DNA of 53,278 nt, taken from positions 1 to 53,278 of the forward strand of contig JANWWN010000017.1 in assembly GCA_025055435.1 (NCBI GenBank), in the 5' to 3' direction. The notes beneath the pieces are model-generated. The model was not told the origin of the DNA, made no database searches, and worked only from the letters and a program-made list of their open reading frames with translations. The DNA comes from Cyclobacteriaceae bacterium (GTDB lineage Bacteria > Bacteroidota > Bacteroidia > Cytophagales > Cyclobacteriaceae). Position numbers and translations under genes: made by a program. Shown here piece after piece: positions 5,666 to 48,925 of this stretch; the first letter of the stretch is position 1, and each line of letters starts with the position of its first letter.

Positions 5666-6964
5666 TTACCTGCTGTTCATCAGATCTTCAATCTCCTCTG
5701 CCTCAATGGGTATGTTGCGCATCAGGTCGTGGAGTCCATTTTTGGTAACCACCACGTTGTTTTCAAGCCGGATACCCAGGCCTTCCTCCTTAATATAGAT
5801 ACCAGGCTCAACAGTCCATACCATGCCCTCTTTAATCTTATCAAACATATTGCCGGTGTCGTGCACATCCAGCCCGAGATGGTGGCCCGTGCCATGCATA
5901 AAATATTTCATACACGCAGGTTTATCCGGGTCCTGATTTTTGATGTCGGTTTTGTCCAGCAATTTAAGTTTAAGCAACTCCGCTTCCATAACCTTCTGTA
6001 CTTCCCGGTGGTACTTAAAATATTCCGTTCCCGGGCGCAGCATACTGAAGGCTTCGCGCTGAACGCGCAACACGGCATTGTACACCTCGCGCTGACGTTT
6101 GGTAAACTTTCCGTTTACCGGAATGGTGCGTGTGAGGTCGGCATTGTAGTTGGCATATTCCGCACCCACATCCAGCAGCAGCACATCGCCTGCGCGACAG
6201 GTGGCGCTGTTGTCGATGTAGTGCAGCACGCAGGAATTGGCGCCCGAAGCAATGATGGGTTCGTAGGCAAAGCCACGCGAACCGTGACGCAGGAATTCGT
6301 GTGCCAGTTCAGCCTCGATTTCGTACTCCTTCACACCCGGCTTTACAAACTCCAACACCCGCCGGAATCCCTTTCCGGTGATGTCGCAGGCTTTCTGCAT
6401 CAGTTCGATTTCCGGTTTTGACTTGATGGCGCGCAGCCGGGCCATCAGCGGAGCAAGACGTTCGTAGTGGTGCAGCGGGTATTTTTCTTTACACCATCGG
6501 ATGAACCGCGCATCGCGACTTTCTACGATCACATCGGCACGGTAATGCTCATTGGTATTGAGATAAACATGCTCCACCCCACCCATTACCATCATGGTGT
6601 GAAACAGACGCTTAAACTCCGACAACCACAATATCGTTTCAATGCCGGTTTGTTCGCGCGCTTCCTCTTTGGTAAGCTTGTGCCCCTCCCAGGTGGCAAT
6701 AATTTCATTGGTTTCGCGAAGAAACAGCACTTCGCGAAACTTCTTGTCCGGGTAATCCGGACACAGTACCAAAATGGTTTCTTCCTGATCAACACCGGTT
6801 AGATAAAAGAGGTCACTGTTCTGACGAAAACGCAGGGTGCCATCGGCATTGGTGGGCATAATGTCGTTGGCATTAACCACCACCAGCGAGGCGGGTTTGA
6901 GCAATTTTATCAGCCGCTTTCGGTTATCGGTAAAGAGCTGCTTATTGATTTTTTCGTAACGCAT
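5666..6964 (-). CDS. pepP: Xaa-Pro aminopeptidase, M24B family (432 aa)
   Basis: Removes N-terminal residues in front of proline. An N-terminal aminopeptidase-P domain (about 1-170) precedes the pita-bread catalytic domain. The five metal ligands are visible: Asp in LLLDVGAEY, Asp in YNADLTRTIP, His in GTGHHLGLDVHD, Glu in VEPGIYI and Glu in GIRLENNVVV. Length fits PepP (about 430-440). No signal peptide, so it is cytoplasmic. It is the first gene of a two-gene unit with the DUF4198 protein. The call is firm; the symbol follows the E. coli enzyme. Confidence 0.93.
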   Translation of the reverse strand: MRYEKINKQLFTDNRKRLIKLLKPASLVVVNANDIMPTNADGTLRFRQNSDLFYLTGVDQEETILVLCPDYPDKKFREVLFLRETNEIIATWEGHKLTKEEAREQTGIETILWLSEFKRLFHTMMVMGGVEHVYLNTNEHYRADVIVESRDARFIRWCKEKYPLHHYERLAPLMARLRAIKSKPEIELMQKACDITGKGFRRVLEFVKPGVKEYEIEAELAHEFLRHGSRGFAYEPIIASGANSCVLHYIDNSATCRAGDVLLLDVGAEYANYNADLTRTIPVNGKFTKRQREVYNAVLRVQREAFSMLRPGTEYFKYHREVQKVMEAELLKLKLLDKTDIKNQDPDKPACMKYFMHGTGHHLGLDVHDTGNMFDKIKEGMVWTVEPGIYIKEEGLGIRLENNVVVTKNGLHDLMRNIPIEAEEIEDLMNSR

Positions 6965-7056
6965 AGCACATTATTCAAGCCAAAGGTGCAAAAAGTTGAT
7001 TGTTCCGTAAGGCCTACGGATTACAAACGGAACCAAAAATTTTAATGCTGTGTCAG

Positions 7057-7515
7057 TCAGCCCTCCGAAGGCTCATCGGTATCAATAAAATTGATCAGGA
7101 TAAAGGTTACCAGCAAACCGGAAAAAACTCCTTCGAGTGCAACAATGAACGATGCAATGTAGGGATTGAGGAAACGGCCCATAGGTTCATTTTCAATGAG
7201 GTATTGCATGAATCCGCGATCGAGCAGCGATACATATAAGAACAGGAAGGCTGCAAAAACCAACGACCCCACGGCCCCGGTGGCAAAGCCTGTAATCAGG
7301 GCGCGGAAATAATGGATGTGTTCTCCGTGTGTGTGTTGAAATTTCTTCAAAGCATAGTAGATTCCGGCAATCAGAATAAAAAGATTCAGCAGCCTAAGCT
7401 CCACTACATGCAGCAGGCCGGCAAACTTCATCACTAGAAAATAAACAATCAGGCCAACGGCAATGCGCAGACCGTAATTAATATGAACCAGGTTAGGGTT
7501 GGTTAGTACATTCAT
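7057..7515 (-). CDS. Four-helix membrane protein, DUF4199-like (152 aa)
   Basis: Four hydrophobic segments are visible at about residues 14-34, 40-57, 72-95 and 120-143, with a His-rich cytoplasmic or periplasmic loop (FQHTHGEHIHYF) between the second and third. The pattern of a reading like YYALKKFQ-, then GxxxGxxxSLVFAAFLFLYV, parallels the DUF4199 proteins at 24558-25606. Function is unknown for the family. The gene stands alone on its transcript, between pepP and the phospholipase-like gene. The small tail DTDEPSEG is acidic. The membrane call is sure, the family link is moderate. Confidence 0.6.
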   Translation of the reverse strand: MNVLTNPNLVHINYGLRIAVGLIVYFLVMKFAGLLHVVELRLLNLFILIAGIYYALKKFQHTHGEHIHYFRALITGFATGAVGSLVFAAFLFLYVSLLDRGFMQYLIENEPMGRFLNPYIASFIVALEGVFSGLLVTFILINFIDTDEPSEG

Positions 7516-35643: not shown

Positions 35644-37575
35644 ATGAAACGGCTTTCCCGCCTTACCCTGCGCCAGTGGGCCTGGCTGATTGCTCTTCTT
35701 GTATTTGCTCTTATCAGTCTGGAGGCTTTGTGGCTTTACCATGTGCACCAACAGGTGCTGAACGTGCACCGTCAGATTGACGTAGTGCGTCAGCAACAGT
35801 TTCATTTTAACGAAGTACTTAGTGCAGAACTGCCCGAATCAGCCCGGCAGGCGCGGGTAAAGCAAATCAGCAAGACCCTGTCGTTACTTGAAACAGGCGG
35901 ACTTTTACCTTTGACCCTGCAAGAGGTTACGGCTTTGCAGGGCATACCGGCTGTTACCTTAAAATCATTACTATCCGACTGGAAGGCCTTTACCGGAAGT
36001 ACCGACAGCGTCACCCAACGCACCCATGCCCTGCTTATTGCCGGGCACTTTGAAGTTTTGATTCGCGACCTGCATCGGCAGGAAGCTAAAGAGCGAACCA
36101 TCTTCACGTATTCATTAGCCGGCAACCTGATTATCGTTGCTGCGGTATTGTATGTACTGGTACGCAGCTTCAGACGAAAAATTCTTGAGCCACTCCATCA
36201 GCTAGCCATCAACGCCATTCAACACAATCACACCAACGGCTTACCCGATAACGAATTAGGTAAGGTGGCTATAAACATTAATACAGTGATTGAAAACCTG
36301 CGCGACGCATCGGACTTTGTAACAGCCATAGGTGAAGGGAACCTGACGAAAGATTACCGCGAACTGGAACCGGACTATGAGCCAGGTAAAAATAAACTGG
36401 CCGATTCGCTTATCGCCATGCAGGAAAAGCTGCGGCAGATTAATGAAGAAGAACAAAAACGGAAGTGGGCCAACGAAGGCCTTGCAAGATTTGTGGATAT
36501 TCTCCGTTCCTCGCAGAATAATCTCCACCAGTTGGGCGACCGGATAATCGCCACACTGGTACAATATACCGGCTCCAACCAGGGCGGATTGTATGTGCTG
36601 AATGAAGATGACCCGCACCACCCTCACCTGGAATTGCTGTCGCTCTACGCTTTCAACATTAAAAAACATCAGCAGCAAAAAGTTAAGCCGGGTGAAGGAC
36701 TGCTCGGGCAAACGTTTCTTGAACAACAAACTGTTTACCTCAAAGAGCTTCCGGATGAATACATCCGCATCACTTCCGGGCTGGGCGATGCATCTCCGCG
36801 CAACCTGCTGATTGTACCGCTTAAGCTGGAAGATAAAGTGTATGGCATGGTCGAACTGGCCTCCTTCAGGGAATATCAGCCTCACGAAATAGCGTTTGTT
36901 GAAAAACTGGGCGAAACCATAGCCTCCACACTGGCAACCGTTCGCAACAACCAACGCACACAACGCCTGCTCGATGAAAGCCGGATGGCGGCAGAGTCCC
37001 TCCGCGCACAGGAAGAAGAGATGCGACAGAACATGGAAGAACTTACCGCCACGCAGGAAGAAATGCAACGAATCCTGCGCGAATCACAGCAAAAGGAAAC
37101 TTACCTGAACAACCTCATGGATGCTTCGGGCGATGCTTTTGTGGCCATCGACCGAAACTACTGCGTAGCTCTGCGCAACAACGCACCTTTGTTCGAACAA
37201 TTTATTAAGGCAGGTATTCCGTACGAAAAAGGTTTCAACGTGCTGAGTTTGTTTAAAGCTGACGAAGTGGAGTACCACAAAGCCATTTACGACCGCGTAT
37301 TTCAGGGTGAAAGCATCAGCGTGGTAAAGAATTATTTTGGCCGCGACTATTCCGTTAACTATAAACCGCTTCGCGCCCCCAATGGTGAAATTCTTGGCGC
37401 AGCCATTTACGCGCACGACCTCACCCATCAGCAACTTCAGGAAAAACGCATCAGCGAACTGGAACAACAACTGGCCCGACAAACTACCGATGAGGTGCTT
37501 ACCGGACTGGAAAAAGCGCTGCGGCTGAACCTGGAGGCGCTGGAAATTACACGCAGGGCCGCAGGCGGTCAGTAA
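35644..37575 (+). CDS. Membrane GAF-PAS sensor protein (643 aa)
   Basis: Residues 11-33 and about 153-176 are membrane helices, enclosing a helical periplasmic domain similar to the four-helix-bundle part of chemoreceptors. A HAMP-like linker (178-270) precedes a GAF domain (about 278-440, with PGEGLLGQTFLEQQTVYLKE and LIVPLKLEDKVYGMVELASF). A coiled coil (440-482) contains EELTAT at 465-470, and a PAS domain ends at about 600. No kinase, cyclase or HTH output domain is found. The GAF domain resembles those at 39186 and 39931, suggesting they act together in the neighbouring Che/Sia cluster. Confidence 0.82.
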   Translation: MKRLSRLTLRQWAWLIALLVFALISLEALWLYHVHQQVLNVHRQIDVVRQQQFHFNEVLSAELPESARQARVKQISKTLSLLETGGLLPLTLQEVTALQGIPAVTLKSLLSDWKAFTGSTDSVTQRTHALLIAGHFEVLIRDLHRQEAKERTIFTYSLAGNLIIVAAVLYVLVRSFRRKILEPLHQLAINAIQHNHTNGLPDNELGKVAININTVIENLRDASDFVTAIGEGNLTKDYRELEPDYEPGKNKLADSLIAMQEKLRQINEEEQKRKWANEGLARFVDILRSSQNNLHQLGDRIIATLVQYTGSNQGGLYVLNEDDPHHPHLELLSLYAFNIKKHQQQKVKPGEGLLGQTFLEQQTVYLKELPDEYIRITSGLGDASPRNLLIVPLKLEDKVYGMVELASFREYQPHEIAFVEKLGETIASTLATVRNNQRTQRLLDESRMAAESLRAQEEEMRQNMEELTATQEEMQRILRESQQKETYLNNLMDASGDAFVAIDRNYCVALRNNAPLFEQFIKAGIPYEKGFNVLSLFKADEVEYHKAIYDRVFQGESISVVKNYFGRDYSVNYKPLRAPNGEILGAAIYAHDLTHQQLQEKRISELEQQLARQTTDEVLTGLEKALRLNLEALEITRRAAGGQ

Positions 37576-37698
37576 AACCTGCTGGCTTGAGTTGCTTTGT
37601 TTGTAATTAATTAAATTTCAAAGATTTAACGGGCCTGCCGGGCAACCAAGACAGCAAAAACAGGTTGCGCATGTAAGATTTTACAACCGTTTTCCCTG

Positions 37699-37726
37699 TT
37701 GCGCTTGACCGGCTCTTGTATTTTTG
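37699..37726 (+). promoter_or_regulatory. Predicted promoter of the cheR-siaC gene series
   Basis: TTG at 37699-37701 and a perfect -7 element TATTTTTG at 37719-37726, 17 bases apart, match the Bacteroidota promoter pattern. The -7 element is 28 bp upstream of the cheR start at 37754. It could make genes from cheR to at least the PP2C protein one transcript, independent of the GAF-PAS gene. Confidence 0.55.
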
Positions 37727-37753
37727 GGGCCTTCAATTTTAAAGACCCTCAAC

Positions 37754-38575
37754 ATGCAGGAAATAGACATAGCTGACCTGAGGCGGATATCGGAGTTGAT
37801 TTATCAGAAATACAACTACGACTTCCGCAATTACGCCATGTCGTCATTCAAACGCAGGGTCCAGCGTATCCTCGACCTGAAAAAACTCACCATTGACTCC
37901 CTGATAAAAAAACTGAACGAACAACCTGCCTTTATCCACGAGTTCCTGGATGAGCTTACCGTTAACGTAACCGAAATGTTCCGCGACCCGGGCTTCTGGC
38001 GGGTCATGCGCGAAGAAATCATCCCCTCCATCCTGCTTAACCACAAACAATTTAAGATATGGCATGCCGGGTGCTCATCCGGTGAAGAAGTGTTGTCAAT
38101 GGCCATCCTTTTAAAAGAGATGGGCATTCACCAAAACGTACAGATTTACGCCACCGACCTGGATGTGAACATTCTCGAAAAAGCCAAAGCAGCCACCTAT
38201 CCGGTAAAAAACATGGACCTGAACGAGAAGAACTACATCCGCTTTCAGGGGGCCGGTAGCTTAAAAGATTATTACCGGGAAGAAAACGGCCAGGCCATTT
38301 TTAATCGCGACCTGCTCAGCACCGTCACGTTCCGCAAGCACGACCTGGTACTGGGCGAAGTATTCAACAAATTCGATTTGATACTGTGCCGAAACGTAAT
38401 GATTTATTTCAATCAGACGCTTCAAAATGAAGTGCTGAAAAAATTTCACGAAAGCTTATTCAAATACGGATACCTGGCCATCGGCTCCAAGGAATCACTC
38501 ATTTGGTGCGATTACGCCAACCGTTTTATTGTGGTTAACAACGAAGAAAAAATATATAAGAAAATAAAAGATTAA
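37754..38575 (+). CDS. cheR: CheR-type protein-glutamate methyltransferase (273 aa)
   Basis: CheR methylates glutamates in receptor helices using S-adenosylmethionine. The N-terminal helical domain (about 1-75; SSFKRRVQRILDLKKL) and the SAM-binding Rossmann-like domain are both there, with IWHAGCSSGEEVLSMAILL and YATDLDVNILEKA, and the catalytic region LILCRNVMIYFN. The start ATG at 37754 follows the promoter; the 10-codon longer frame would begin inside it. The usual partners CheA, CheW or an MCP receptor are not in the window. It is followed by the CheB-like gene after 17 bases. Confidence 0.93.
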   Translation: MQEIDIADLRRISELIYQKYNYDFRNYAMSSFKRRVQRILDLKKLTIDSLIKKLNEQPAFIHEFLDELTVNVTEMFRDPGFWRVMREEIIPSILLNHKQFKIWHAGCSSGEEVLSMAILLKEMGIHQNVQIYATDLDVNILEKAKAATYPVKNMDLNEKNYIRFQGAGSLKDYYREENGQAIFNRDLLSTVTFRKHDLVLGEVFNKFDLILCRNVMIYFNQTLQNEVLKKFHESLFKYGYLAIGSKESLIWCDYANRFIVVNNEEKIYKKIKD

Positions 38576-38592
38576 TACGCTGCCATCGGCCC

Positions 38593-39189
38593 ATGAACAA
38601 ATACAACCTAAATAACAGCTATAAAGCCGTTGTTATCGGTGGGTCGGCCGGTAGCTTTCAGGGTGTGGTAAAAATCCTTTCGCAACTGCCCAAGGGTTTT
38701 CCATTACCCATCATCATGTGCCTGCACCGGCTTAAGCACGTGCGCCACGGTTTCGTGGAGGCCCTGTCGCTGAAAAGTGTAGTTCAGGTAACTGAACCAT
38801 ACGATAAGGAGCCAATAAAAAAAGGCGGCGTTTATCTGGCACCGGCAAACTACCACCTCTCGGTTGAACTGGGAAATTACTTTGCCCTCTCAACCGAAGA
38901 GATGATCAACAACTCCAGGCCGGCCATCGACATCACCCTGGGCACCTGCGCCTATGTGTTTAAAGATAAACTCATCGGCATTCTGCTATCAGGTGCCAAT
39001 AAGGACGGTGCCTTGGGTATGAAGCAGATTAAAGACCGTGGCGGACTAACCATTGTACAGGATCCGTCCGAATGCATGATTGACACCATGCCCAAGTCGG
39101 CTATGGCGTTAACTAAAATTGACTACGTTTTGAAAATTGACCAGATTGTGGATTTTCTTAAAGAATTAAACAAGCACTACCGCACATGA
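38593..39189 (+). CDS. CheB-type methylesterase catalytic domain, no receiver (198 aa)
   Basis: CheB removes methyl groups from receptor glutamates. The catalytic triad is intact: Ser18 in GGSAGS, His45 in CLHR and Asp138 in GANKDGALG. The N-terminal receiver domain that regulates classical CheB is missing, so activity would not be gated by CheA phosphorylation. It lies between CheR and the membrane GAF protein and overlaps the latter by four bases (ATGA at 39186). Hence the pair can methylate and demethylate a local target. The alternative function, deamidation, is also possible. Confidence 0.9.
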   Translation: MNKYNLNNSYKAVVIGGSAGSFQGVVKILSQLPKGFPLPIIMCLHRLKHVRHGFVEALSLKSVVQVTEPYDKEPIKKGGVYLAPANYHLSVELGNYFALSTEEMINNSRPAIDITLGTCAYVFKDKLIGILLSGANKDGALGMKQIKDRGGLTIVQDPSECMIDTMPKSAMALTKIDYVLKIDQIVDFLKELNKHYRT

Positions 39190-39908
39190 AAAGACCAAAC
39201 CTGCATTTCCTATCCATTCTGCTCGCAGTAGTTTTTCTGCTCTCGGGTACCGGTGCCTGGTTAACCTTGCTCCTGTCATCGGCAGCCGGCATACCCTCTT
39301 CGTTTTACTTTTATCTTGCAGTCTCCTTTCTTTCAGGCGCAACTGCGTTGATTTTGGCGTTAACCGTCCGTAATGAAGTCATCGTTTACCGGGAAAGAAA
39401 AGATGAAAACCGTCAAACCGATGAACAACAGCGGCATGACCATACCGCCTCACTGAATAGTAAGCTCATAACCGAATCCGTGCGCAAGGCACGAACAACG
39501 GCCGATGCAGCTCAGCAATTTTTGCAATCTGTGGCCGGACAACTGCAGGCCGGTGCCGGAGCTTTTTACCGCGTACACCGGGATAACGGAACGCGCACAG
39601 CAGTACTGGAAGCCGGATATGCCATACCGGTAAGCGAAAAAAACCGCATAGCCTACGAAGCCGGTGAAGGCCTGGTGGGTCAGCTGATCGTTACCGGAAA
39701 AACTGTGTATCTGGACGAGCTCCCGGAAGGTTACATTAAAATTATTTCCGGACTGGGCAGCGCCTCACCGCGATATGTTTTTATTTGCCCGGTGCTTAAA
39801 GACAACGAAGTTGTGGGCGCTGTTGAACTGGCCTCATTTACTCCGCTTACCCCTGCCCAGCGTAAACAAGTGGAAGAAGCATGCCAGATTGTAGCTGAAA
39901 AAATGTAA
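39186..39908 (+). CDS. Two-helix membrane protein with GAF domain (240 aa)
   Basis: Two membrane helices (about 8-32 and 38-60) separated by a short loop, then a coiled linker and a GAF domain at about 95-240. The GAF core reads GEGLVGQLIVTGKTVYLDEL, then ISGLGSASPRYVFICPVL and VVGAVELASFTPL, closely parallel to those of the proteins at 35644 and 39931. There is no output domain. It is translationally coupled to the CheB-like protein. A role as a ligand-sensing partner in the cluster is likely but unproven. Confidence 0.82.
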   Translation: MKRPNLHFLSILLAVVFLLSGTGAWLTLLLSSAAGIPSSFYFYLAVSFLSGATALILALTVRNEVIVYRERKDENRQTDEQQRHDHTASLNSKLITESVRKARTTADAAQQFLQSVAGQLQAGAGAFYRVHRDNGTRTAVLEAGYAIPVSEKNRIAYEAGEGLVGQLIVTGKTVYLDELPEGYIKIISGLGSASPRYVFICPVLKDNEVVGAVELASFTPLTPAQRKQVEEACQIVAEKM

Positions 39909-39930
39909 GTCTTCATAAACAGAAGCAACT

Positions 39931-42900
39931 ATGTGGAAAAAAATCCGGATTAGCACCAAAATCACGTTACTTATTCTCCTCCTGTCTCTAATCGGAGTGT
40001 TGGCCATCGGTGTGTTTACATACGAATACCTGATAAAAGCCAATCGCGATAAATATATGTTCAGCCTTGCGGCTATTGCGAACGCCAGGGCCGACCAGGC
40101 AGAAATATTTTTTGAATATCAGAAAAACCGGATTAACACCCTGGCCGATTACCTCAACAACTTTGGCGAATCCCTTACAAACGAATCACTGCTAAGTAAT
40201 GATACCGCCTGTGTAATCAGCTCTTCCGGCAACATATTGTTTTCCAATCATCCTTCCTTCCCGATAGGAAAAGTACTTACCGACCCCGATGGCTCCGGTT
40301 TCGCAGGAGCTCAACAAGGCATCTACTTCAGTACCGCATTAAAAGAAGGCAGCGATTATTTTACCTACGGAGTTACCTCTGTTTCGCAGGACAAGCTGCT
40401 GGTGGTAAAAATAAAACTCAATTCACTATACCGGCATTTTATGCGGGAGCAAGGCTTGGGTAAAACCGGTGAGATTATACTGGTAAAACAAGATGCTTCA
40501 GCCAACCGCATTTTCCTGCTCAGTCCGCTGCGCCACGACCCCGGTGCAGCCATAAAAGTATTTTCAGCCAATGACCCGAAGGTGCGCGGAATAAAAGCCG
40601 TGTTTGCCGGCATGCCGGGTTATACCGCTTCTTCCGATTATCGCGGAGAATCGGCCTTGTACACCGGTCGCCCGCTTGCACTGAACGGATGGGCTGTAAT
40701 CGCTAAAATGGATACCGATGAGGCCAATGGCGATGCACCGGGCGTGATGCGCACCATTACCATGGCCGGCCTGGGTGTGCTGATGCTTGCTTTTCTCATC
40801 TCCCTGCTGCTTACACGCTCACTCACCCGTCCGTTAAATTTTATGCGAAATATCCTGGGCATGGTTGAACAGGGTATCCTTCCGGAACGCATCGAAGTAA
40901 CAAGCCGGGATGAATTCGGCCAAATGACCGAAAAGGTAAATAACCTGGTGGCATCTCTTAAAAACAACGCCCGGTTTGCGCAATTTATTGGCGAAGGAAA
41001 ATACGACACGGAATTTAAGCCAGCATCGGACAACGACCAGCTGGGCATGGCGCTCATTACCATGCGCAATAACCTGGTAGAAAACGAACGGCGCGAAAAC
41101 GAGCGCAACTGGATTGTGCGCGGTGTAGCCGAAATCAGCGAAATCCTCCGCATGCACGACTCCATCGATACGATGGGCGATGATGTAATCAAATTCATCC
41201 TCGAAAAAATCGGTGCCGTGCAGGGAGCCTTTTACGTGGTGAATGACGAAACCGGAGCAGAACCGGTTATTGAAATGCGCGCAAGCTATGCCTATGGCCG
41301 AAAAAAATATTTGCAAAAGCAATTCCGCTTTGCCGAGGGTTTGGTGGGTCAGGCAGCTATTGAAAAGGATACGGTATTACGAACCGAAATTCCGCCAGAT
41401 TATGTAACCATCACTTCGGGTATTTTAGGCGACCAGCGGCCAACGTGTATTCTCATCGTTCCGCTGATAACCAACGAGGAAGTTTATGGTGTATTGGAAT
41501 TTGCCGGCCTCAAAAAATTCAATCCGTCGCAGGTAAAGTTTGTTGAAGAACTCAGTTTGATTCTGGCCCGCACCATCTTCAACATTAAAGTAAACGAGCG
41601 CACGCGCAGGCTGCTGGAAGAGTCGCAGGCCATGAGTAATGAACTGAAAGAGAAACAGGAGGTGTTGCGCCAGAATGCCGAAGAAATGCAGGCTACGCAG
41701 GAAGAACTGGAGCGCACCAACCGCGAACTGGCCAAACAAATCGAAGAGGTAAACCGGACCCAGAAGCGGATGCAACTGCTGCTGGAAAATGCTTCGGAAG
41801 TAATAACCATATACGAAGAAGATGAAACCATACGCTACATGTCGCCATCGGTTGAAACCATTTTAGGATATGGCCAGAAAGAACTGATTGGCAAGAGCGA
41901 CCTGTACCTTGTGCATCCCGATTACCGCGAAGTATACGAAGACCTTTTCCGTAAAATGAAGTCGCAGCCGGATGAAAAGGTTACGGCGCAGTTTGAATAC
42001 AAAACCAAAGACGGCAACTACATCTGGGTTGAAGCCACCGGTACCAATTTCATGAAGAACCCGGCTATTCACGGGTACATCTTAAATGTGCGCGATATCA
42101 CCGAGCGCCGGCGTGCGGAGCAGGAACAGCGTATGCGCAGTAAAATGCAGGCGCTCTCGGAAAACTCGCCCGACCTCATCACGCGGCTGGAGGATGAAAT
42201 CATTTCGTACATCAACCCGGTTATTGAAACCTATACCGGCAAGAGCCCGCAGTGGTTTATTAACCGAAAAGTGAAAGAGGCCGAACTGGATAACTCCATA
42301 TTAAACTCCTGGCTTAAAATTGTTGAACAGGTTCAGGCCAGCCAGGAAACAGTGGCCACCGAAATGGATTTCCCCAGTGAACTGGGTAAACGCATCATGC
42401 AGGTAAATGCCATTCCTGAATTTGATGAAAACAGTAAGCTGGAATCAGTGCTGGTGGTGTCCCATGACATCACCGAGCGCAAAATGATTGAACTGGAAAT
42501 TCAGAATAAGAACAAAAAAATCACCGAGAGCATTAACTACGCCAAGCGCATCCAGTCGGCCATATTACCCAACACCCGCGTTATCAGCCGGGTACTGCCC
42601 GACTCATTTATATTATACAAGCCCCGTGATGTGGTGAGTGGCGACTTCCCGTGGTATATGCAACTGAAGGATGAAGTATTTATTGCTGCGGTTGACTGCA
42701 CCGGCCACGGTGTACCGGGTGCGTTGTTATCGCTTATCGGCTACTTCCTGCTGAACGACATTGTACGTAGCCGAAAGGTTACCGAGCCGGGCGTTATACT
42801 CGACCTGCTCGATGAAGGCGTTACCAAAACCCTTCGTCAGGATGAGGATGCCACCACAAAAGACGGCATGGACATCGCCTTGTGTAAAATCAACCTCAAC

Positions 42901-43269
42901 ACGCGCGAAGTGGAATACGCGGGTGCTCACCGGCCATTGTATGTTATGCGCAATGGCGTAATGGAAGAAGTCAAGGGTAATAAATTTCCCATTGGTGGCG
43001 GGATATTTAAAAATCAAACCAACTTCACAACCACCCGCCTGCAACTCAACAAAGGCGACTCCATTTACTTCAGCTCCGACGGTTACCCCGACCAGTTTGG
43101 CGGGCCGGAGGGCCGTAAATTCGGCCCCAAAAAAGTGCGCGAAATCATCGAACGCGTATATACCCTCAGCATGCGCGAGGCGGCCATCATCTTTGATAAT
43201 GAGTGGGAAGCATGGCGGGGCGACACGAAACAAACCGATGATGTATTGTTAATCGGCATTAAATTTTAA
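39931..43269 (+). CDS. Cache-HAMP-GAF-PAS-PAS-PP2C (SpoIIE-type) phosphatase, SiaA-like (1112 aa)
   Basis: Membrane helices at about 11-33 and 272-292 enclose a large periplasmic Cache-like sensor. HAMP (about 293-345), GAF (395-545), a coiled coil (545-612, with EEMQAT at 584-589), two PAS domains (about 613-735 and 740-855) and a C-terminal SpoIIE-type PP2C phosphatase (about 880-1112) follow. The PP2C metal-binding Asp residues are seen in VVSGDFPW, AVDCTGHGVPGA, SSDGYPDQFGG and TDDVLL. This is the layout expected of a SiaA-like phosphatase that removes phosphate from SiaC. The length is unusual, with at least four input domains. Confidence 0.92.
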   Translation: MWKKIRISTKITLLILLLSLIGVLAIGVFTYEYLIKANRDKYMFSLAAIANARADQAEIFFEYQKNRINTLADYLNNFGESLTNESLLSNDTACVISSSGNILFSNHPSFPIGKVLTDPDGSGFAGAQQGIYFSTALKEGSDYFTYGVTSVSQDKLLVVKIKLNSLYRHFMREQGLGKTGEIILVKQDASANRIFLLSPLRHDPGAAIKVFSANDPKVRGIKAVFAGMPGYTASSDYRGESALYTGRPLALNGWAVIAKMDTDEANGDAPGVMRTITMAGLGVLMLAFLISLLLTRSLTRPLNFMRNILGMVEQGILPERIEVTSRDEFGQMTEKVNNLVASLKNNARFAQFIGEGKYDTEFKPASDNDQLGMALITMRNNLVENERRENERNWIVRGVAEISEILRMHDSIDTMGDDVIKFILEKIGAVQGAFYVVNDETGAEPVIEMRASYAYGRKKYLQKQFRFAEGLVGQAAIEKDTVLRTEIPPDYVTITSGILGDQRPTCILIVPLITNEEVYGVLEFAGLKKFNPSQVKFVEELSLILARTIFNIKVNERTRRLLEESQAMSNELKEKQEVLRQNAEEMQATQEELERTNRELAKQIEEVNRTQKRMQLLLENASEVITIYEEDETIRYMSPSVETILGYGQKELIGKSDLYLVHPDYREVYEDLFRKMKSQPDEKVTAQFEYKTKDGNYIWVEATGTNFMKNPAIHGYILNVRDITERRRAEQEQRMRSKMQALSENSPDLITRLEDEIISYINPVIETYTGKSPQWFINRKVKEAELDNSILNSWLKIVEQVQASQETVATEMDFPSELGKRIMQVNAIPEFDENSKLESVLVVSHDITERKMIELEIQNKNKKITESINYAKRIQSAILPNTRVISRVLPDSFILYKPRDVVSGDFPWYMQLKDEVFIAAVDCTGHGVPGALLSLIGYFLLNDIVRSRKVTEPGVILDLLDEGVTKTLRQDEDATTKDGMDIALCKINLNTREVEYAGAHRPLYVMRNGVMEEVKGNKFPIGGGIFKNQTNFTTTRLQLNKGDSIYFSSDGYPDQFGGPEGRKFGPKKVREIIERVYTLSMREAAIIFDNEWEAWRGDTKQTDDVLLIGIKF

Positions 43270-43358
43270 CATGTATGAAAATCGTTCATTTTGAATATTT
43301 TAAGGACCCGATTTTCAACCAAACCTTCTAAATTCGAACCTTCAAAATTCCTATCGCA

Positions 43359-43910
43359 ATGGATTTTATCTACAACCTCCACCGCACCATGCTGAGCCAG
43401 AATCTGATCCTGGTTTATCAGGGAGATTTTACCCAGGAAACCACCAAGTCCATTCTGGCCATGGCCGAGCGCAATCTCGACTCATCGGGCGAAGAATCGT
43501 CTATCAAAAGAAAAGTGTTCAACGTAATGGTCGAGGCCTTGCAAAACATCGTTAAGCACAGCGATGAGCTGATTGACGGTCAGATGCGCAGCCATGCGGC
43601 CATCTTTCTAATCGGAAAGGAAGCCAATCGCTATTCCATCATGACCGGCAACCCGATCCGAAAATCCAATGTCGAAAAACTTAATCAGGCGCTTACCCAC
43701 ATCAATAGCCTCGATAAAGACGGACTGAAGGAGTTGTACAAGAATATCATTAAAAACACAACCATATCCGAAAAAGGAGGTGCGGGACTCGGCTTCGTGG
43801 ATATGGCCCGCAAGTCGGGTGAAAAACTGGAATTTGCTTTCCCGGAAATGAACAGTGAGTACTGCTTTTTCTGTCTGAAAGTTAACGTGCCGCGCGAAAG
43901 CGGTGAGTAA
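43359..43910 (+). CDS. siaB: SiaB-family protein kinase (183 aa)
   Basis: SiaB is an ATP-dependent kinase of the GHKL fold that phosphorylates SiaC. The N box is VMVEALQNIVKHSD, and the ATP-lid region is GGAGLGFVDMARKSG. Length fits the DUF6272/SiaB family. It lies between the PP2C phosphatase and SiaC, just as siaA-siaB-siaC in Pseudomonas aeruginosa. No SiaD is nearby. Confidence 0.9.
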   Translation: MDFIYNLHRTMLSQNLILVYQGDFTQETTKSILAMAERNLDSSGEESSIKRKVFNVMVEALQNIVKHSDELIDGQMRSHAAIFLIGKEANRYSIMTGNPIRKSNVEKLNQALTHINSLDKDGLKELYKNIIKNTTISEKGGAGLGFVDMARKSGEKLEFAFPEMNSEYCFFCLKVNVPRESGE

Positions 43911-43955
43911 TCTGATAAAACTGATGTTAAACCGAAAACGAAAATCTGTATAACC

Positions 43956-44318
43956 ATGGAAATACTGCATCTGGAAGGAACGGAAGACACCCCGAAAATC
44001 ATTCTCGACAAAAAGAACGGCATCTTTGAAATCTCAGGGCGTTCCCTGCCCGAAGACTCAGCCGAATTTTACCGGCCTGTACTGGAGTGGATTGGACAGT
44101 ATAGCTCAGACCCTAATCCCACTACCGACTTTGTATTCAAGCTGGAGTATTTCAACACGGCTTCCTCAAAACTTATTCTCGATGTACTTAGTGCATTGGA
44201 GGATATTAAAGGCATGAAAATTCTTTGGTATTACCACGAAGATGATGAAGACATGCAGGAAGCCGGCCAGGAATTTTCAGAGCTGGTAGAAATTCCGTTT
44301 GAGTTTAAAACCTACTAA
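43956..44318 (+). CDS. siaC: SiaC-family regulatory phosphoprotein (120 aa)
   Basis: SiaC is the partner-switch protein, phosphorylated by SiaB and dephosphorylated by SiaA; in P. aeruginosa its unphosphorylated form activates the diguanylate cyclase SiaD. The conserved phosphosite motif FNTASSK is here, and by count the threonine is Thr68, the same position as in P. aeruginosa. The start (MEILHLEGTEDTPKI) and the C-terminal YYHEDDEDMQEAGQEFSEL complete the DUF1987 pattern. The next gene, an ABC transporter, starts 38 bases downstream. Confidence 0.93.
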   Translation: MEILHLEGTEDTPKIILDKKNGIFEISGRSLPEDSAEFYRPVLEWIGQYSSDPNPTTDFVFKLEYFNTASSKLILDVLSALEDIKGMKILWYYHEDDEDMQEAGQEFSELVEIPFEFKTY

Positions 44319-44356
44319 TCTTTTTTCGGACAAGCCGAACCCGCAAGCCCTGAAGC

Positions 44357-47300
44357 ATGAGCGAGGAAATACTCAAAGCACTTACCCAGCTGTTTGCCAT
44401 CATTACCAAGCAGGACAGTGGCGTAAGTGCCAATGAGCGGCAGTATGTTATCAACTTTTTCCAGACCGAACTCGACCAGGATTCGGTTAAGGAATACCTC
44501 GCCCTGTATGACGAGCAATCAGGCTATGGCAAGACTGCCGAGGCAGGCGGAACAAAGCTTACCTCGGTTAAGGAGTCTGTCCGCGTACTGGGTATCTGCA
44601 AAAAAATCAACAAAACCCTTACCCAAAAGCAAAAGGTAGTTGTACTGATTAAGATTCTGGAACTGGTGGCTGTGGATAAGAATTTTTCATCCCAGCGCAT
44701 GGAAATTATCAACACGGTTTCCACGGTATTCAACATCAGTCCGGAAGAATACAAACTGATTGAGGATTTCATAACCACAACCAATCCGCTGTCGCTCGAC
44801 TACCCGGATATTCTGCTGGGCAATACAAACGAAAAGGAAGAAAGTAAACGACATAAGCACGTTAAAATCCACATTGACGGAAACCTGGTATGCATGCGCG
44901 TACGCAGTGTGGACATGTACTTTGTTAAGTATGTGGGCGAAGAATCCACCTTGCTTAACGGATTCATCATGCAGCCCAACCGCGTGTACCTGTTTTCGCA
45001 TGGCAGCACCATTAAAACTCAGTCGGGCGATGCCATGTACTACAGCGACATCGTAGCCGACTTCAATGAAGAAATCAAAACCACCAAGCTGTCGTTCAAT
45101 GCGGTAATTGAAGAATACCGCTTCCCTAACGGTACCATCGGACTGCGCGACATTCAGGTATCGGAAGGACCGGGCAAACTGATCGGCATTATGGGTGCCA
45201 GCGGTGCCGGTAAAACCACCCTGCTCAACGTACTGGCCGGGCTGGCAAAACCCACCAAAGGCTATATCCGCATCAACGGCTTCGACATTTTCGAAGAAAA
45301 AGAAAAAATCCATGGTGTTATCGGTTATGTATCGCAGGACGACTTGCTGATCGAAGAGCTGACGGTTTACCAAAACCTGTACTACAACGCCAAGCTTTGC
45401 TTTGCCCACTACACCGAAGAACAAATCCACAAGCGGGTGATGGAAGTGTTGGAAGACCTTGGGCTGGACCAGCGAAAAGACCTGAAAGTGGGTAATCCGC
45501 TGCAGAAAACCATCAGCGGCGGGCAACGCAAGCGACTGAACATTGCTTTGGAACTGATACGCGAGCCGGCCATATTGTTTCTTGATGAACCTACCTCCGG
45601 TTTGTCATCACGCGATTCGGAAAACGTTATCGACCTGCTGAAGGAATTGTCCATGAAGGGCAAGCTGATTTTTGTGGTTATCCATCAGCCCTCATCCGAC
45701 ATCTACAAGATGTTCGATAAGATGATCATCATGGACACGGGTGGCTATCCGGCGTATTACGGCCCGCCGGTGGAAGCCGTAACCTACTTCAAAAAATCTA
45801 CCCTGCAGGTTGACAGCAACCGCGGCCAGTGCGAAACCTGTGGTAACGTTAACCCCGAACAAATATTCAATATCATCGAAGCCAAGGTAGTTGACGAGTA
45901 CGGTCAGCCTACCTCCAAAAGGAAAATCAATCCGGCACAATGGTACGAATGGTACCGCGAGCGCTTCCGGATACAAAAGGTGGAGGACGTGCGCGAAGAG
46001 CCTCCGCGCTCGCTTAACTTACCGAATCGCCTCAAACAAACTTTAATTTTTACCACACGCGACACACTGGCCAAGCTCAGCAACAAGCAATACCTGCTGA
46101 TCAACCTGTTGGAGGCACCCTTGCTCGCTTTTATTCTCGCTTTTATCATCAAATACCGCAGCGCTCCGGGCGGTAAAGATTACCTGTTCCGCTTTAACGA
46201 TAATTTCCCGGCCTTTATCCTGATGAGCATTATTGTTGCGCTCTTCATGGGCCTGACCGTCAGTGCCGAAGAAATCATCCGCGACCGTAAGATCCTGAAA
46301 CGCGAATCATTCCTTAACTTAAGCTGGAACAGCTACCTGCTTTCCAAAATTATTATTCTCTTCACCCTGTCGGCCATTCAAACGCTGTCGTTCGTACTCA
46401 TAGGCCACCTTATCCTTGAAGTAGAGTGGCGCATGATATTGCCCTATTGGCTCATGCTCTTTTCCGTGTCATGCATGGCCAACGTGCTGGGCTTAAATAT
46501 CTCATCGGCTTTCAACTCGGCCGTTACCGTTTATGTGATGATACCGCTGTTGCTGATACCGCAGATGATTTTGAGCGGATTACTGTTCCGGTTCGACAAA
46601 CTGAATGAGCTGATCAGCACCAAAGGCAAAGTACCGGTGGTAGCCGATTTGATGGCATCGCGTTGGGCATTCGAAGGTCTTGCCGTTTATACTTTCGTGA
46701 ACAATTCCTACGAAAAGCCTTATTACAAGTTGGAGAAAATTGAATCGCAGGCTGACTTTCGTTCGTCTTTCCTGGCTGATGAGCTGGAGAAAAGAAGAAA
46801 ATTTATTGCCGATAACATTGACAATCCGTCCGATTCGGTTAAGCGATTGATGCAGAAAGACCTGGAAATCATCCGCAAGGCACTGAAGGATGATTATTAT
46901 AAAAAAGGTCTCGAAAAACTGAACTTTGACGAACCCTGGCAATTATCCATGTTCACACCTGATTTTGCCCGTAAACTGGAAGAATTTTTGCAGAACTACC
47001 GAAAGTTCTATCAGGGTGCTTACAATAAGGCTGTTTCCGAACGTGAAGAACTCATCTATAAGCGGGAAAATGCGAAAGGCTCCACGTACAATCTGAATGA
47101 ATACAAAAACCATTATTTCAATGAAAGTCTGGCCGACCTGGTAAAAAATGTTTCAACCAAAAACCGCATTGAAGAGTATAACGGTGAACTAATTCAAAAC
47201 ATCAACCCCGTGTTTCTGGACCCTAAACCGAAGGGACTGCTTGATTATCGGACACACTTTTATGCACCCGTTAAAAACTTTATCGGTATGCGTATAAATA

Positions 47301-47425
47301 CGTATGCTTTCAACCTTATCATGATCTGGTTAATGGCGCTGGCTTTCTATGTAACCCTGTATTTTGAATGGCTCAGAAAGGCCATAGACCTTACCGGAAA
47401 AGTGAGTGTGCCAGGTAAAAAATGA
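44357..47425 (+). CDS. TerB-like/FHA-like/ABCG-type ABC transporter (1022 aa)
   Basis: N-terminal helices (about 1-140) resemble TerB, with two acidic helical repeats. A beta-rich FHA-like part (about 165-255) follows. The ATPase core has Walker A GASGAGKTT (about 280), signature ISGGQRKRL, Walker B ILFLDEPTSGLS (about 410) and H-loop IHQPS. A linker carries CETC at about 495. Several membrane helices begin near 584 as in ABCG half-transporters, then a long, charged extracytoplasmic region and a last helix near 985-1005. The fused ATPase and permease form a full half-transporter. Its position right after siaC suggests that it is the output of the Sia switch, but this is inference. Confidence 0.85.
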   Translation: MSEEILKALTQLFAIITKQDSGVSANERQYVINFFQTELDQDSVKEYLALYDEQSGYGKTAEAGGTKLTSVKESVRVLGICKKINKTLTQKQKVVVLIKILELVAVDKNFSSQRMEIINTVSTVFNISPEEYKLIEDFITTTNPLSLDYPDILLGNTNEKEESKRHKHVKIHIDGNLVCMRVRSVDMYFVKYVGEESTLLNGFIMQPNRVYLFSHGSTIKTQSGDAMYYSDIVADFNEEIKTTKLSFNAVIEEYRFPNGTIGLRDIQVSEGPGKLIGIMGASGAGKTTLLNVLAGLAKPTKGYIRINGFDIFEEKEKIHGVIGYVSQDDLLIEELTVYQNLYYNAKLCFAHYTEEQIHKRVMEVLEDLGLDQRKDLKVGNPLQKTISGGQRKRLNIALELIREPAILFLDEPTSGLSSRDSENVIDLLKELSMKGKLIFVVIHQPSSDIYKMFDKMIIMDTGGYPAYYGPPVEAVTYFKKSTLQVDSNRGQCETCGNVNPEQIFNIIEAKVVDEYGQPTSKRKINPAQWYEWYRERFRIQKVEDVREEPPRSLNLPNRLKQTLIFTTRDTLAKLSNKQYLLINLLEAPLLAFILAFIIKYRSAPGGKDYLFRFNDNFPAFILMSIIVALFMGLTVSAEEIIRDRKILKRESFLNLSWNSYLLSKIIILFTLSAIQTLSFVLIGHLILEVEWRMILPYWLMLFSVSCMANVLGLNISSAFNSAVTVYVMIPLLLIPQMILSGLLFRFDKLNELISTKGKVPVVADLMASRWAFEGLAVYTFVNNSYEKPYYKLEKIESQADFRSSFLADELEKRRKFIADNIDNPSDSVKRLMQKDLEIIRKALKDDYYKKGLEKLNFDEPWQLSMFTPDFARKLEEFLQNYRKFYQGAYNKAVSEREELIYKRENAKGSTYNLNEYKNHYFNESLADLVKNVSTKNRIEEYNGELIQNINPVFLDPKPKGLLDYRTHFYAPVKNFIGMRINTYAFNLIMIWLMALAFYVTLYFEWLRKAIDLTGKVSVPGKK

Positions 47426-47498: not shown

Positions 47499-47528
47499 TT
47501 GGCAGGGATTGATGAATTTATAACTTTG
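47499..47528 (+). promoter_or_regulatory. Predicted promoter of the lipoprotein gene
   Basis: TTG at 47499-47501 and a perfect -7 element TAACTTTG at 47521-47528, 19 bases apart, form a consensus Bacteroidota promoter. It also shows that the true start codon is ATG at 47550, not the one upstream at 47499, which is part of the promoter. Confidence 0.7.
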
Positions 47529-47549: not shown

Positions 47550-48449
47550 ATGAAAAAGTTATTCCCCGCACTTTTCACAATTATCCTGATGGCCTGCGGC
47601 TCGGAAAAGAAAAGCGATGAACAGGCTTTCATGGAGGAGTTGGACAGTGCCCAAAACACCGGGCCCACCATTTCTGAAGCCGTGATAGGCGATATACTTC
47701 AGCAAATCCCAAGTCCGCTGGAAATTGCCGTATTATTAAAGGAGTCGGGGAAAAAGTACAATGCTTCGCTACTTAACTCACCCGATAACCTGCCCAAATA
47801 CAACAGTAACTACAAGAAGGCGCTAAATCTTGGAATCTACGGTGCAGATTTGGGATACACCAATATCTACGAGCAGAATCAGGACGGCATCAAATACATT
47901 TCAAGTATCAAATCGCTTGCCGATGGCTTAAATATCGGTCAGTTTTTCGACATCGAGACCATCGGGCGACTGGCTACCAACAGCAAAAATCTGGACTCAC
48001 TTTTGCTGATTACCACCCAGAACTTCAACTCCATTAATCACTACCTGCAAACCCAGGGAAGGGCCAACCTGAGCGTATTGCTGCTTACAGGCGGGTGGAT
48101 TGAAGCGGTGCATATCATGTGCAGCGTAGCCGCCCAGGACCCGAACAACAAAGTACTGCAGGAAAAAATTGGTGAACAAAAGGTAATTCTGGAGAATATT
48201 ATGCTGTTACTTTCCTTCTATAAAGACAAGGATCAGAACATGGCTACCTTATACGATGATATGCAGGAGCTGAAAAAAATATTCGACCGGGTAAACATTA
48301 CCTACACGTACAAAGAATCAACATTCGAAGTGGTTAATGGTGTAATGGTCATTAAAGACAACAGTACCACAACCATTGATATTACACCACAGGATGTAGT
48401 GGATATTCGTAACTCAACCGTAAATATTCGTAACAAGATTATCAGCTAG
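47550..48449 (+). CDS. Predicted lipoprotein of unknown function (299 aa)
   Basis: The signal MKKLFPALFTIILMACG has a lipobox LMAC with the lipidated Cys16. The mature protein is mostly helical and charged: a run of helices with FMEELDSAQ, a middle with KKALNLGIYGADLGYTNIYE, and a C-terminal region with strands such as VVNGVMVIKDN and long helical NMATLYDDMQELKKIF. No named domain is recognised. It is two bases from the next secreted protein, and it has its own perfect promoter. It begins 124 bp after the ABC transporter of the Sia cluster. Confidence 0.75.
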   Translation: MKKLFPALFTIILMACGSEKKSDEQAFMEELDSAQNTGPTISEAVIGDILQQIPSPLEIAVLLKESGKKYNASLLNSPDNLPKYNSNYKKALNLGIYGADLGYTNIYEQNQDGIKYISSIKSLADGLNIGQFFDIETIGRLATNSKNLDSLLLITTQNFNSINHYLQTQGRANLSVLLLTGGWIEAVHIMCSVAAQDPNNKVLQEKIGEQKVILENIMLLLSFYKDKDQNMATLYDDMQELKKIFDRVNITYTYKESTFEVVNGVMVIKDNSTTTIDITPQDVVDIRNSTVNIRNKIIS

Positions 48450-48451
48450 CT

Positions 48452-48877
48452 ATGAAACGACTCGCATTTTTTGTATTTATCTTTTTTGCGCTAAGTTCAA
48501 CTAACTCCACCGCTCAGTGCAATTCAGAAGCCCTGTCGAACCAGTGTATTCCTAAACTGGCTTCCGGATTTAACTTTCTGAAGAGTTATAAAATTGACGG
48601 TGAAGGCGGTGCGAAAGATAAAGTGGAATATTCTTACGTGTTTACGAAAGGTACGCAGTACATGATAAACATTTGCGCGCCTAACCAGCCCACTGATGGT
48701 ATCGTGGTTACACTGTATGACTCTAACCGAAACAAAGTAGCCACCAGTAAGGTTAATGGGCAATACATCTCGGCAATTGCTTATCCCTGCAATGCAACGG
48801 GAATCTATTATATTCAATACACGTTCGATGGCTCATCCACTTATTGCGGTGGCAGTGCCTTAGGGTTTAAGCGCTGA
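48452..48877 (+). CDS. Small secreted beta-sandwich-like protein (141 aa)
   Basis: Signal peptide (about 1-21, KRLAFFVFIFFALSSTNSTA) precedes a mature protein with six Cys. The mature part is beta-rich, with VEYSYVFTKGTQYMINIC, GIVVTLYDSNRNKVATS and GIYYIQYTFDGSSTYCGG, similar to pre-peptidase C-terminal-like domains. It is two bases from the lipoprotein stop, so it belongs to the same operon. It ends 24 bp before a terminator hairpin. Confidence 0.7.
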   Translation: MKRLAFFVFIFFALSSTNSTAQCNSEALSNQCIPKLASGFNFLKSYKIDGEGGAKDKVEYSYVFTKGTQYMINICAPNQPTDGIVVTLYDSNRNKVATSKVNGQYISAIAYPCNATGIYYIQYTFDGSSTYCGGSALGFKR

Positions 48878-48901: not shown

Positions 48902-48925
48902 ACCCGGCCTGGCTGGGTTTTTTGT
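48902..48925 (+). terminator. Rho-independent terminator of the lipoprotein operon
   Basis: A stem-loop at 48902-48918 (ACCCGGC with GCTGGGT, one G-T pair, loop CTG) is followed by a run of six T (48918-48923) and then GTTTT. It lies 24 bp past the stop at 48877 and ends the transcript from 47528. Confidence 0.65.

Follow-up and report, generated by a model that had tools for sequence, protein, structure and literature searches.

Gene content of the locus

The window analysed here is a stretch of 53,278 nucleotides (contig JANWWN010000017.1, positions 1 to 53,278, forward strand) from Cyclobacteriaceae bacterium GCA_025055435.1, and its subject is a run of nine genes encoding a CheR-type methyltransferase, a CheB methylesterase domain, a membrane GAF protein, a SiaA-type sensor phosphatase, a SiaB-family kinase, the phosphoprotein SiaC, an ABCG-type ATP-binding cassette (ABC) exporter, a lipoprotein, and a small secreted protein. 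It is near certain that these nine genes constitute a real, conserved module. An initial annotation of the window had described eight same-strand genes ending with the transporter; all eight proved to be + strand open frames lying close to the positions first assigned to them. Pfam and NCBIfam return most of the domains that had been named, the exceptions being the PAS domain of gene 1, the Cache domain of SiaA, and the FHA-like part of the transporter, for which Pfam gave no match (for the last of these, a predicted structure supports an FHA fold). The core of that gene set is conserved, its first gene is optional, and the two genes downstream of the transporter had been missed.

All features described here lie on the + strand. 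The CheR-type glutamate methyltransferase (37754..38575; PF01739, 153.8 bits) aligns with the structures 5ftw and 1af7, and its start is more likely the ATG at 37754 than the TTG at 37724. The CheB methylesterase domain (38593..39189; PF01339, 165.2 bits; aligned with 3sft) stands alone, with no match to a receiver domain, and is followed by the membrane GAF protein (39186..39908; PF13185), which shows the lowest tblastn identity of the core genes—that is, it is the least conserved of them. The SiaA-type sensor phosphatase (39931..43269), assigned from Pfam, NF038263, and 6k4e, comprises an N-terminal sensor part, HAMP, GAF, a coil (S-helix), two PAS domains, and PP2C; the codons of E584-E585-M-Q-A-T in the S-helix (41680..41697) mark, from motif conservation, a candidate CheR/CheB site, with E585 the expected residue. 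Then follow the SiaB-family kinase (43359..43910; NF038262, 179.5 bits, cut-off 85; 6kko_A, E 1.4e-13) and SiaC (43956..44318; PF09345, 134.3 bits), whose alignment with Pseudomonas aeruginosa SiaC (6k4f, 6kko_C) places the Thr68 codon at 44157..44159. The half-size ABCG-type exporter (44357..47425; PF05099, PF00005, PF01061) carries N-terminal TerB (residues ~1-135) and, according to its model, FHA-fold (~150-240) parts, and is followed by a mainly alpha-helical lipoprotein (47550..48449), with a lipobox-like LMACGS read in the sequence and a predicted model, and by the small secreted protein (48452..48877), with a signal-like N-terminus recognized by eye.

Upstream of the core, gene 1 (35644..37575) encodes a membrane sensor with a GAF match, a coil containing EELTAT, and a probable PAS domain. 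Two promoter-like sites, both read by eye with no control and both of a consensus that we take to be Bacteroidota-type, are TATTTTTG (37719..37726), shortly 5′ of the cheR ATG, and TAACTTTG (47521..47528), 5′ of the lipoprotein gene. A hairpin scan found a terminator-like hairpin 3′ of the unit (48902..48918), in a region where hairpin-like sites are not enriched (18 versus a shuffle mean of 17.1).

Conservation and spread of the module

In a first set of 20 family loci, chosen by a SiaC match length equal to that of the window—a biased pick that favours orthologues—CheR, CheB, the membrane GAF protein, SiaA, SiaB, SiaC, the ABC transporter, the lipoprotein, and the secreted protein were present in this order at 20/20. 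A homologue of gene 1 was found at only 7/20 of these loci, and gene 1 was accordingly rejected as a core member. An independent scan of genome contigs employed an alignment of the lipoprotein, which served as the module marker, and the best 80 of 142 relatives were retained as named loci. At least 6.2 kb 5′ of the transporter was available in 64 of the 80: 47 contain all nine genes, one (L080) is cut before CheR, three contain SiaB and SiaC with the transporter, lipoprotein, and secreted protein, and 13 contain SiaC with the same three genes; the other 16 named loci comprise 13 cut upstream and three without a scored ABC transporter. With both sets and locus L148 combined, a single order and strand was observed in 68/68 all-nine loci, a number that includes some genomes twice and corresponds to 60 distinct transporter frames. 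Chryseolinea serpens DSM 24574 (L072) and Ohtaekwangia koreensis DSM 25262 (L066), both cultured, are among the carriers of the complete set.

SiaC is present in 100/148 genomes of the family, and a lipoprotein match, weaker paralogues counted, in 113/194 genomes of the order, which is Cytophagales judging by the named relatives. In other families, all nine genes occur in the same order at 12/20 loci from high-scoring genomes, representing eight families besides that of the window (among the 12, CheR is cut by the edge in L220 and the transporter lies in two frames in L210), and L211 has eight of the nine; in all, at least nine of the order's families carry the module. Chance neighbours or an assembly artefact would be the trivial explanation for the initially described arrangement, and one that we regard as next to impossible and have rejected, since the order is conserved in all 68 of the all-nine loci and also in the 12 loci of other families. 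Searches of open-licence PubMed Central papers, a weak basis for a negative, found no published description of the module.

Two observations concern individual members. Some members of the order have two or three tandem lipoprotein copies (L213, L218), with three successive SiaB copies also seen in L218. The transporters of L065 (titled uncultured Bacteroides) and L095 (uncultured Chitinophaga) are near-identical or close to those of Ohtaekwangia koreensis, and these names are probably wrong.

Absence of a cyclase and of a chemoreceptor array

The assembly to which the window belongs (2.79 Mb, 97.4% complete) contains 1 SiaC and 1 CheR, and searches of it for GGDEF, CheW, and MCPsignal returned 0, 0, and 0 matches; the absence of GGDEF proteins, CheW, and classical receptors that had been noted for the window thus holds assembly-wide. 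This genome has no SiaD and no chemoreceptor array, and a SiaD encoded elsewhere in it was rejected on the zero GGDEF count. CheA normally contains a CheW domain; CheA is presumably missing, as no CheW domain was matched, and no search aimed at CheA's own domains was made.

Across the family, a GGDEF match was obtained in 6/148 genomes, with five above the cut-off. A lipoprotein match of at least 290 bits was obtained in at least 74 genomes, and in at least 62 of them SiaC lies no more than 6.5 kb away, the count of 62 being a lower bound. Among these 62 carriers, 60 have no GGDEF match and two have one, so that no cyclase of SiaD type tracks with SiaC. CheW is missing from 24 of the carriers, 13 of which have exactly one CheR match, and a search for MCPsignal in 16 of the 24 gave 0/16; in the CheW-less carriers, therefore, the CheR/CheB pair occurs with no classical client found. 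However, CheW is commoner in carriers (38/62) than in the remaining family genomes (19/86), which leaves a link to arrays possible where arrays exist.

A second, separate link between Sia and Che genes was seen in L170 (G092:C84:30000-49500), where a canonical che cluster—CheW, a methyl-accepting chemotaxis protein (MCP), CheR, a histidine kinase, CheD, CheB with a receiver, and CheY-like and CheC-like proteins—runs straight into a PP2C-SiaB-SiaC set. SiaC and CheW also share a contig in G014:C183 and G135:C154, among the matches listed.

The SiaA/SiaB/SiaC switch and its nested loss

The switch proteins score below the NCBIfam equivalog cut-offs for SiaA, SiaB, and SiaC (199.5/700, 85/225, and 84.8/150 bits, respectively; the SiaA score is that of the SiaA model NF038263, matched over the PP2C domain), and their functional residues are kept. 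The PP2C domain of SiaA aligns with 6k4e (E 1e-29), an entry labelled as a putative serine phosphatase that we take to be SiaA, and its metal-site Asp is kept in 90/90 sequences. The chain 6kko_A, with the same file label, was taken as SiaB on the grounds of its alignment with the SiaB protein and of its occurrence in one entry with SiaC. Glu59 and Asn63 of SiaB, in what is presumably the N-box, are kept in 92/92. The window's SiaC, the sole copy in its genome, retains Thr68. In P. aeruginosa this threonine is the site at which SiaB and SiaA act (PMC7647112). By analogy, Thr68 would be phosphorylated by SiaB and dephosphorylated by SiaA in this module.

Four locus states were distinguished: all nine genes; SiaB and SiaC with the transporter unit; SiaC with the transporter unit; and the transporter unit alone. 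The loss of parts is nested: SiaC is the last regulator retained beside the transporter, and neither SiaA nor SiaB was found without SiaC among the scored module loci. This order of loss is as expected from a chain in which SiaA, CheR, and CheB act through SiaB on SiaC, and SiaC on the transporter, and does not prove contact. In L088, of the SiaB-SiaC state, a SiaA fragment remains by tblastn. SiaB is absent genome-wide in 11/14 genomes with a SiaC-only locus (L110 not counted), and in the other three a further copy of the module is found on a different contig, with CheR, CheB, and SiaA to SiaC (all nine genes in L169; CheR to the transporter, then the contig end, in L167 and L168). In these second copies the SiaA frame has 881-891 residues and mostly lacks the sensor region at its N-terminus; 5′ of CheR lies a large sensor-like gene (833-930 residues), as if sensing had moved there.

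The phosphosite follows the same pattern. Thr68 is kept in 74/74 scored SiaC proteins accompanied by SiaA, in 4/4 accompanied only by a SiaB-like gene, and in 9/15 at SiaC-only loci, where the replacements are Ile (4), Val (1), and Pro (1); this tally sets aside two loci cut at a contig end. With those two and 18 SiaC proteins of other families included, Thr68 is kept in 107/113, all six losses being SiaC-only and 0/98 occurring elsewhere (some loci share a genome in these counts), and it is kept in 28/28 SiaC proteins of other clusters. Thus, loss of Thr68 is confined to loci that lack both SiaA and SiaB. In 13/15 SiaC-only loci the SiaC frame is uninterrupted across almost the entire domain, which indicates that SiaC is kept there without its kinase.

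Several points weigh against reading too much into this pattern. In a transporter tree (n=114, quick method, long branches), the SiaC-only state requires two changes (one forced), SiaB with SiaC five, and the state with none three; SiaC-only rows are nested among full loci, and L214 and L218 lie near the paralogues. The SiaC-only loci accordingly stem from one or two tree events, and the 15 loci are not 15 trials. Thr68 is still present in nine of them, and for one of the losses (L114) the genome contains another copy of the module. In L132 the SiaC frame is interrupted, and in L111 it reaches the contig end. In L215, from another family, CheR is retained beside SiaB and SiaC with no scored SiaA or CheB. 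Finally, an acidic stretch of SiaC that is retained at SiaC-only loci proved to be no signature of the transporter association, being general to SiaC of this group.

SiaC genes also occur apart from the module: two or three adjacent copies are found in other clusters of the family (L192, L193, L195) that lack CheR, CheB, and the transporter unit, and some family genomes have up to 10 SiaC.

The transporter and the envelope proteins

The transporter has PF00005 (263-414) followed by PF01061 (561-750) in one chain, an ABCG-type layout, and scores 258 bits with TIGR00955, below the cut-off of 736. Its predicted head (residues 1-255, model m4db093600310; predicted local distance difference test score, pLDDT, 86.7) combines seven helices, assigned to TerB, with a beta sandwich. 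FHA-domain proteins make up most of the 50 listed Foldseek matches of this head (best E 0.0025, none at or below 0.001), PG1108, which we take to be a TerB-like protein, is also among them, and a profile match relates the FHA part to the FHA domain of MEK1 (E 0.0099). The model, with these weak E-values, suggests that an ABC exporter has been joined to an FHA fold.

Of the candidates for the output of the switch, the ABC transporter is the strongest, as the initial annotation had proposed on proximity, and we consider it rather probable that SiaC acts on it; both the contact itself and export by the transporter are presumed. An alternative is that SiaC acts on something else, such as an anti-sigma-like partner or an unlinked enzyme, with the transporter merely co-regulated. 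This would agree with the resemblance of the SiaC fold to anti-sigma-factor antagonists (PMC7647112), and two results favour it as well: a mirror-tree comparison of SiaC with the TerB and FHA parts shows no extra covariation (partial r -0.06 and -0.09, respectively), a result that also counts against our preferred output, and transporter units without SiaC exist (seven tree rows; L133-L135, L145-L147, L214). At the SiaC-only loci, however, SiaC lies directly 5′ of the transporter, mostly as an open frame; SiaA, SiaB, CheR, and CheB are gone from the locus, and the neighbours left are the transporter unit and a flanking cdd gene. We judge the alternative to be unlikely. TerB helix 1 was considered as a SiaC-specific docking site and rejected, because its identity to the consensus is 0.79 even where SiaC is absent.

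The FHA fold raises a more specific alternative for how SiaC acts on the transporter, namely that it reads phospho-Thr68 directly and that phosphorylated SiaC is the active ligand. A precedent exists in phosphothreonine-bearing Rv2623, which binds FHA I of the exporter Rv1747 and, as described there, the phosphothreonine-binding residues of FHA domains are Gly-Arg-Ser-His-Asn (PMC5549992). In 30 aligned rows of the present FHA part, Asn201 is invariant and Gly202 nearly so, giving the Asn-Gly of the later loop, but no conserved Arg or Ser-x-x-His is evident before residue 179; because the Gly-Arg-Ser-His signature is not evident as conserved columns, direct reading of phosphorylated SiaC by the FHA part is not preferred. 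Furthermore, the FHA domain is present also where SiaC is absent, and Thr68 is lost in six SiaC-only loci that retain the transporter. With the structural matches above on the other side, this alternative appears quite improbable.

Both downstream proteins are conserved. The lipobox Cys of the lipoprotein is invariant (21/21), and its model (pLDDT 78.4) has no Foldseek match against the Protein Data Bank at E 0.001 (best E 0.099); the secreted protein has invariant Cys at 23, 32, 75, 113, and 132 in 21 rows. Neither protein belongs to a Pfam or NCBIfam family above cut-off.

Elsewhere in the same genome (L139, 9339-13388; G000:C19), a paralogous lipoprotein and TerB-ABCG pair occurs with the lipoprotein first and no adjacent SiaC, among neighbours that include a leucyl-tRNA synthetase-like gene and peptidases. 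In the SiaC-only loci L129 and L132, the transporter frame is interrupted within the TerB part (~6877-7232), by decay or assembly error.

CheR, CheB, and a candidate methylation target

In alignments with the solved structures 5ftw, 1af7, and 3sft, the active sites of both CheR and CheB are intact. Four residues of CheR assigned to the S-adenosylmethionine site are kept in 80/80, and Arg87 in 79/80 with one gap; in CheB, Ser18 (82), His45 (82), and Asp138 (83), presumably the catalytic triad, are kept among 83 sequences, the remainder being gaps. A candidate target is present within the module: E584-E585-M-Q-A-T of SiaA lies in the coil between GAF and PAS, its EE pair is invariant (21/21), and few stretches of the protein are as well conserved as this block. 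The sequence NAEEMxAT, which fits the chemoreceptor methylation consensus, is found in 69/70 scored near-relative SiaA proteins (61 distinct), and EExxA[ST] occurs in the gene 1 coil in 8/8 copies (the window and seven others). Neither gene 1 nor SiaA matches HisKA, HATPase, or a receiver. That CheR and CheB act on SiaA or gene 1 is, on balance, slightly favoured.

Other observations speak against SiaA as the target. Among 16 SiaA proteins of other families, eight have the exact consensus, four have Ser for Ala, and four (L207, L211, L217, L221) have a broken motif without the EE pair or the Ala, yet CheR is present in each of these four genomes. EELQAT-like motifs occur in SiaA-like phosphatases of the clusters L173 and L174, which have no adjacent CheR or CheB (their genome does carry the module's CheR elsewhere), and an EExxA[ST]-type motif may therefore be generic in this phosphatase group. 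Moreover, no genome was found in which SiaA is kept and CheR lost: L207, L212, and L217 were considered as CheR-less SiaA loci and rejected, CheR being located just past the fetched edge in L207 and L217 and on another contig in L212.

These observations are what the main alternative draws on, in which SiaA, SiaB, and SiaC do control the transporter and CheR and CheB methylate another protein, such as GAF-coil-PAS sensors elsewhere, making methylation a global input; the consensus missing from 8/16 other-family SiaA proteins, fully broken in four of them despite a genomic CheR, and the motif's occurrence both in gene 1 and in phosphatases encoded in other clusters would all be accommodated. 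It is less easily reconciled with the fixed position of CheR and CheB beside the Sia genes in 68/68 all-nine loci, with the near-universal consensus in the nearer SiaA proteins, and with the joint loss of CheR and CheB wherever SiaA is gone (16/16 named loci with enough upstream DNA, with the caveat of the SiaA fragment in L088 and of other-family L215, which retains CheR). We regard it as rather unlikely.

Proposed mechanism

A methylation-tuned pathway distinct from SiaABCD had been suggested initially, with SiaC acting on a new output; of this, a conserved module, without SiaD or an array in this genome, has been established, while methylation of SiaA or gene 1 and contact between SiaC and the transporter remain presumptive. 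In the scheme that we propose, a signal would be read by the sensor part of SiaA, together with gene 1 where present, and relayed via HAMP, GAF, and the coiled S-helix. A dedicated writer (CheR) and eraser (CheB) would reversibly methylate glutamate 585 of the S-helix, and its twin in gene 1, shifting PP2C output, an effect modelled on chemoreceptors and on Bacillus cereus RsbK. The phosphate on SiaC Thr68 would be added by SiaB and removed by SiaA, and SiaC in one of its forms, most likely without the phosphate if SiaC and SiaD are a guide, would bind the TerB/FHA part of the ABCG transporter. Bound SiaC would then switch export, jointly with the lipoprotein and the secreted protein.

As a whole, the scheme in which CheR and CheB tune SiaA and SiaC sets the transporter is offered tentatively, as one that may well hold although we lean slightly against it; it is rated this high because its two links probably depend in part on each other. 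Its strictest version, an array-free adaptation circuit with a CheR/CheB memory on the helix of a sensor phosphatase and with SiaC gating the ABC exporter directly via the TerB/FHA head, is possible and more doubtful.

Should the scheme be true, a Sia-type phospho-switch would gain memory via methylation. To our knowledge, it would be both the first known partner switch ending on a transporter and the first known methylation-adaptation system ending on a phosphatase. The module also offers a setting for CheR/CheB methylation free of chemoreceptor arrays, and highlights two uncharacterised conserved envelope proteins. The loci without kinase and phosphatase, some also without the phospho-threonine, represent a ready natural experiment, and a SiaC-only orthologue with Ile at 68 is in effect a naturally occurring form that cannot be phosphorylated there.

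Comparison with known systems

SiaC (DUF1987) is widespread, and modulation of neighbouring proteins has been suggested as its shared role in an eLife 2021 paper (PMC8457831); here, in a large natural family with almost no GGDEF proteins, the neighbour is an exporter. The HsbA-HsbD and BgrSTUWV systems are similar in that a STAS-like partner switch has an enzyme, not a sigma factor, as its target; they act through a diguanylate cyclase, and neither CheR/CheB nor a transporter output is mentioned in the partial text of that source (PMC8457831).

Chemosensory MCP-CheW-CheA pathways share with the module the CheR and CheB active sites and EExxA[ST] in a coiled coil, but the module's genome has no CheW or MCP signalling domain, and its CheB has no receiver. 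Another parallel for methylation is RsbK-RsbM-RsbY of Bacillus cereus, in which the kinase RsbK, of CHASE3-HAMP-GAF-S-helix layout, feeds a PP2C switch and is methylated on its S-helix by RsbM, an enzyme called CheR-type (PMC12848376) that has no cognate methylesterase (PMC4574943). Both systems thus place a CheR-type enzyme beside a HAMP-GAF-S-helix sensor of a PP2C partner switch. They differ in that RsbK is a hybrid histidine kinase with a separate PP2C, a sigma B output, and an orphan RsbM (PMC4574943), whereas the module has CheB in its cluster and the S-helix inside the phosphatase itself.

On the output side, Rv1747 with Rv2623 is alike in that an FHA-fold domain is part of an ABC exporter and the regulator bears a phosphorylated threonine (PMC5549992), the latter by analogy only in the module, which has TerB instead of a second FHA, no evident phosphate-binding residues, and adjacent partner-switch genes. 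The remaining comparison is with SiaABCD of Pseudomonas aeruginosa, with which the module shares the PP2C protein SiaA, the kinase SiaB, and SiaC with Thr68 (PMC7647112, PMC8457831). Unlike that system, the module's genome has no SiaD or any GGDEF protein, its SiaA, SiaB, and SiaC fall short of the equivalog cut-offs, its SiaA adds GAF, a coil, and two PAS domains to HAMP and PP2C, and its cluster adds CheR/CheB and an ABC exporter. Overall, the module represents a variant Sia partner switch that includes a CheR and a CheB of its own and whose output is likely an exporter.

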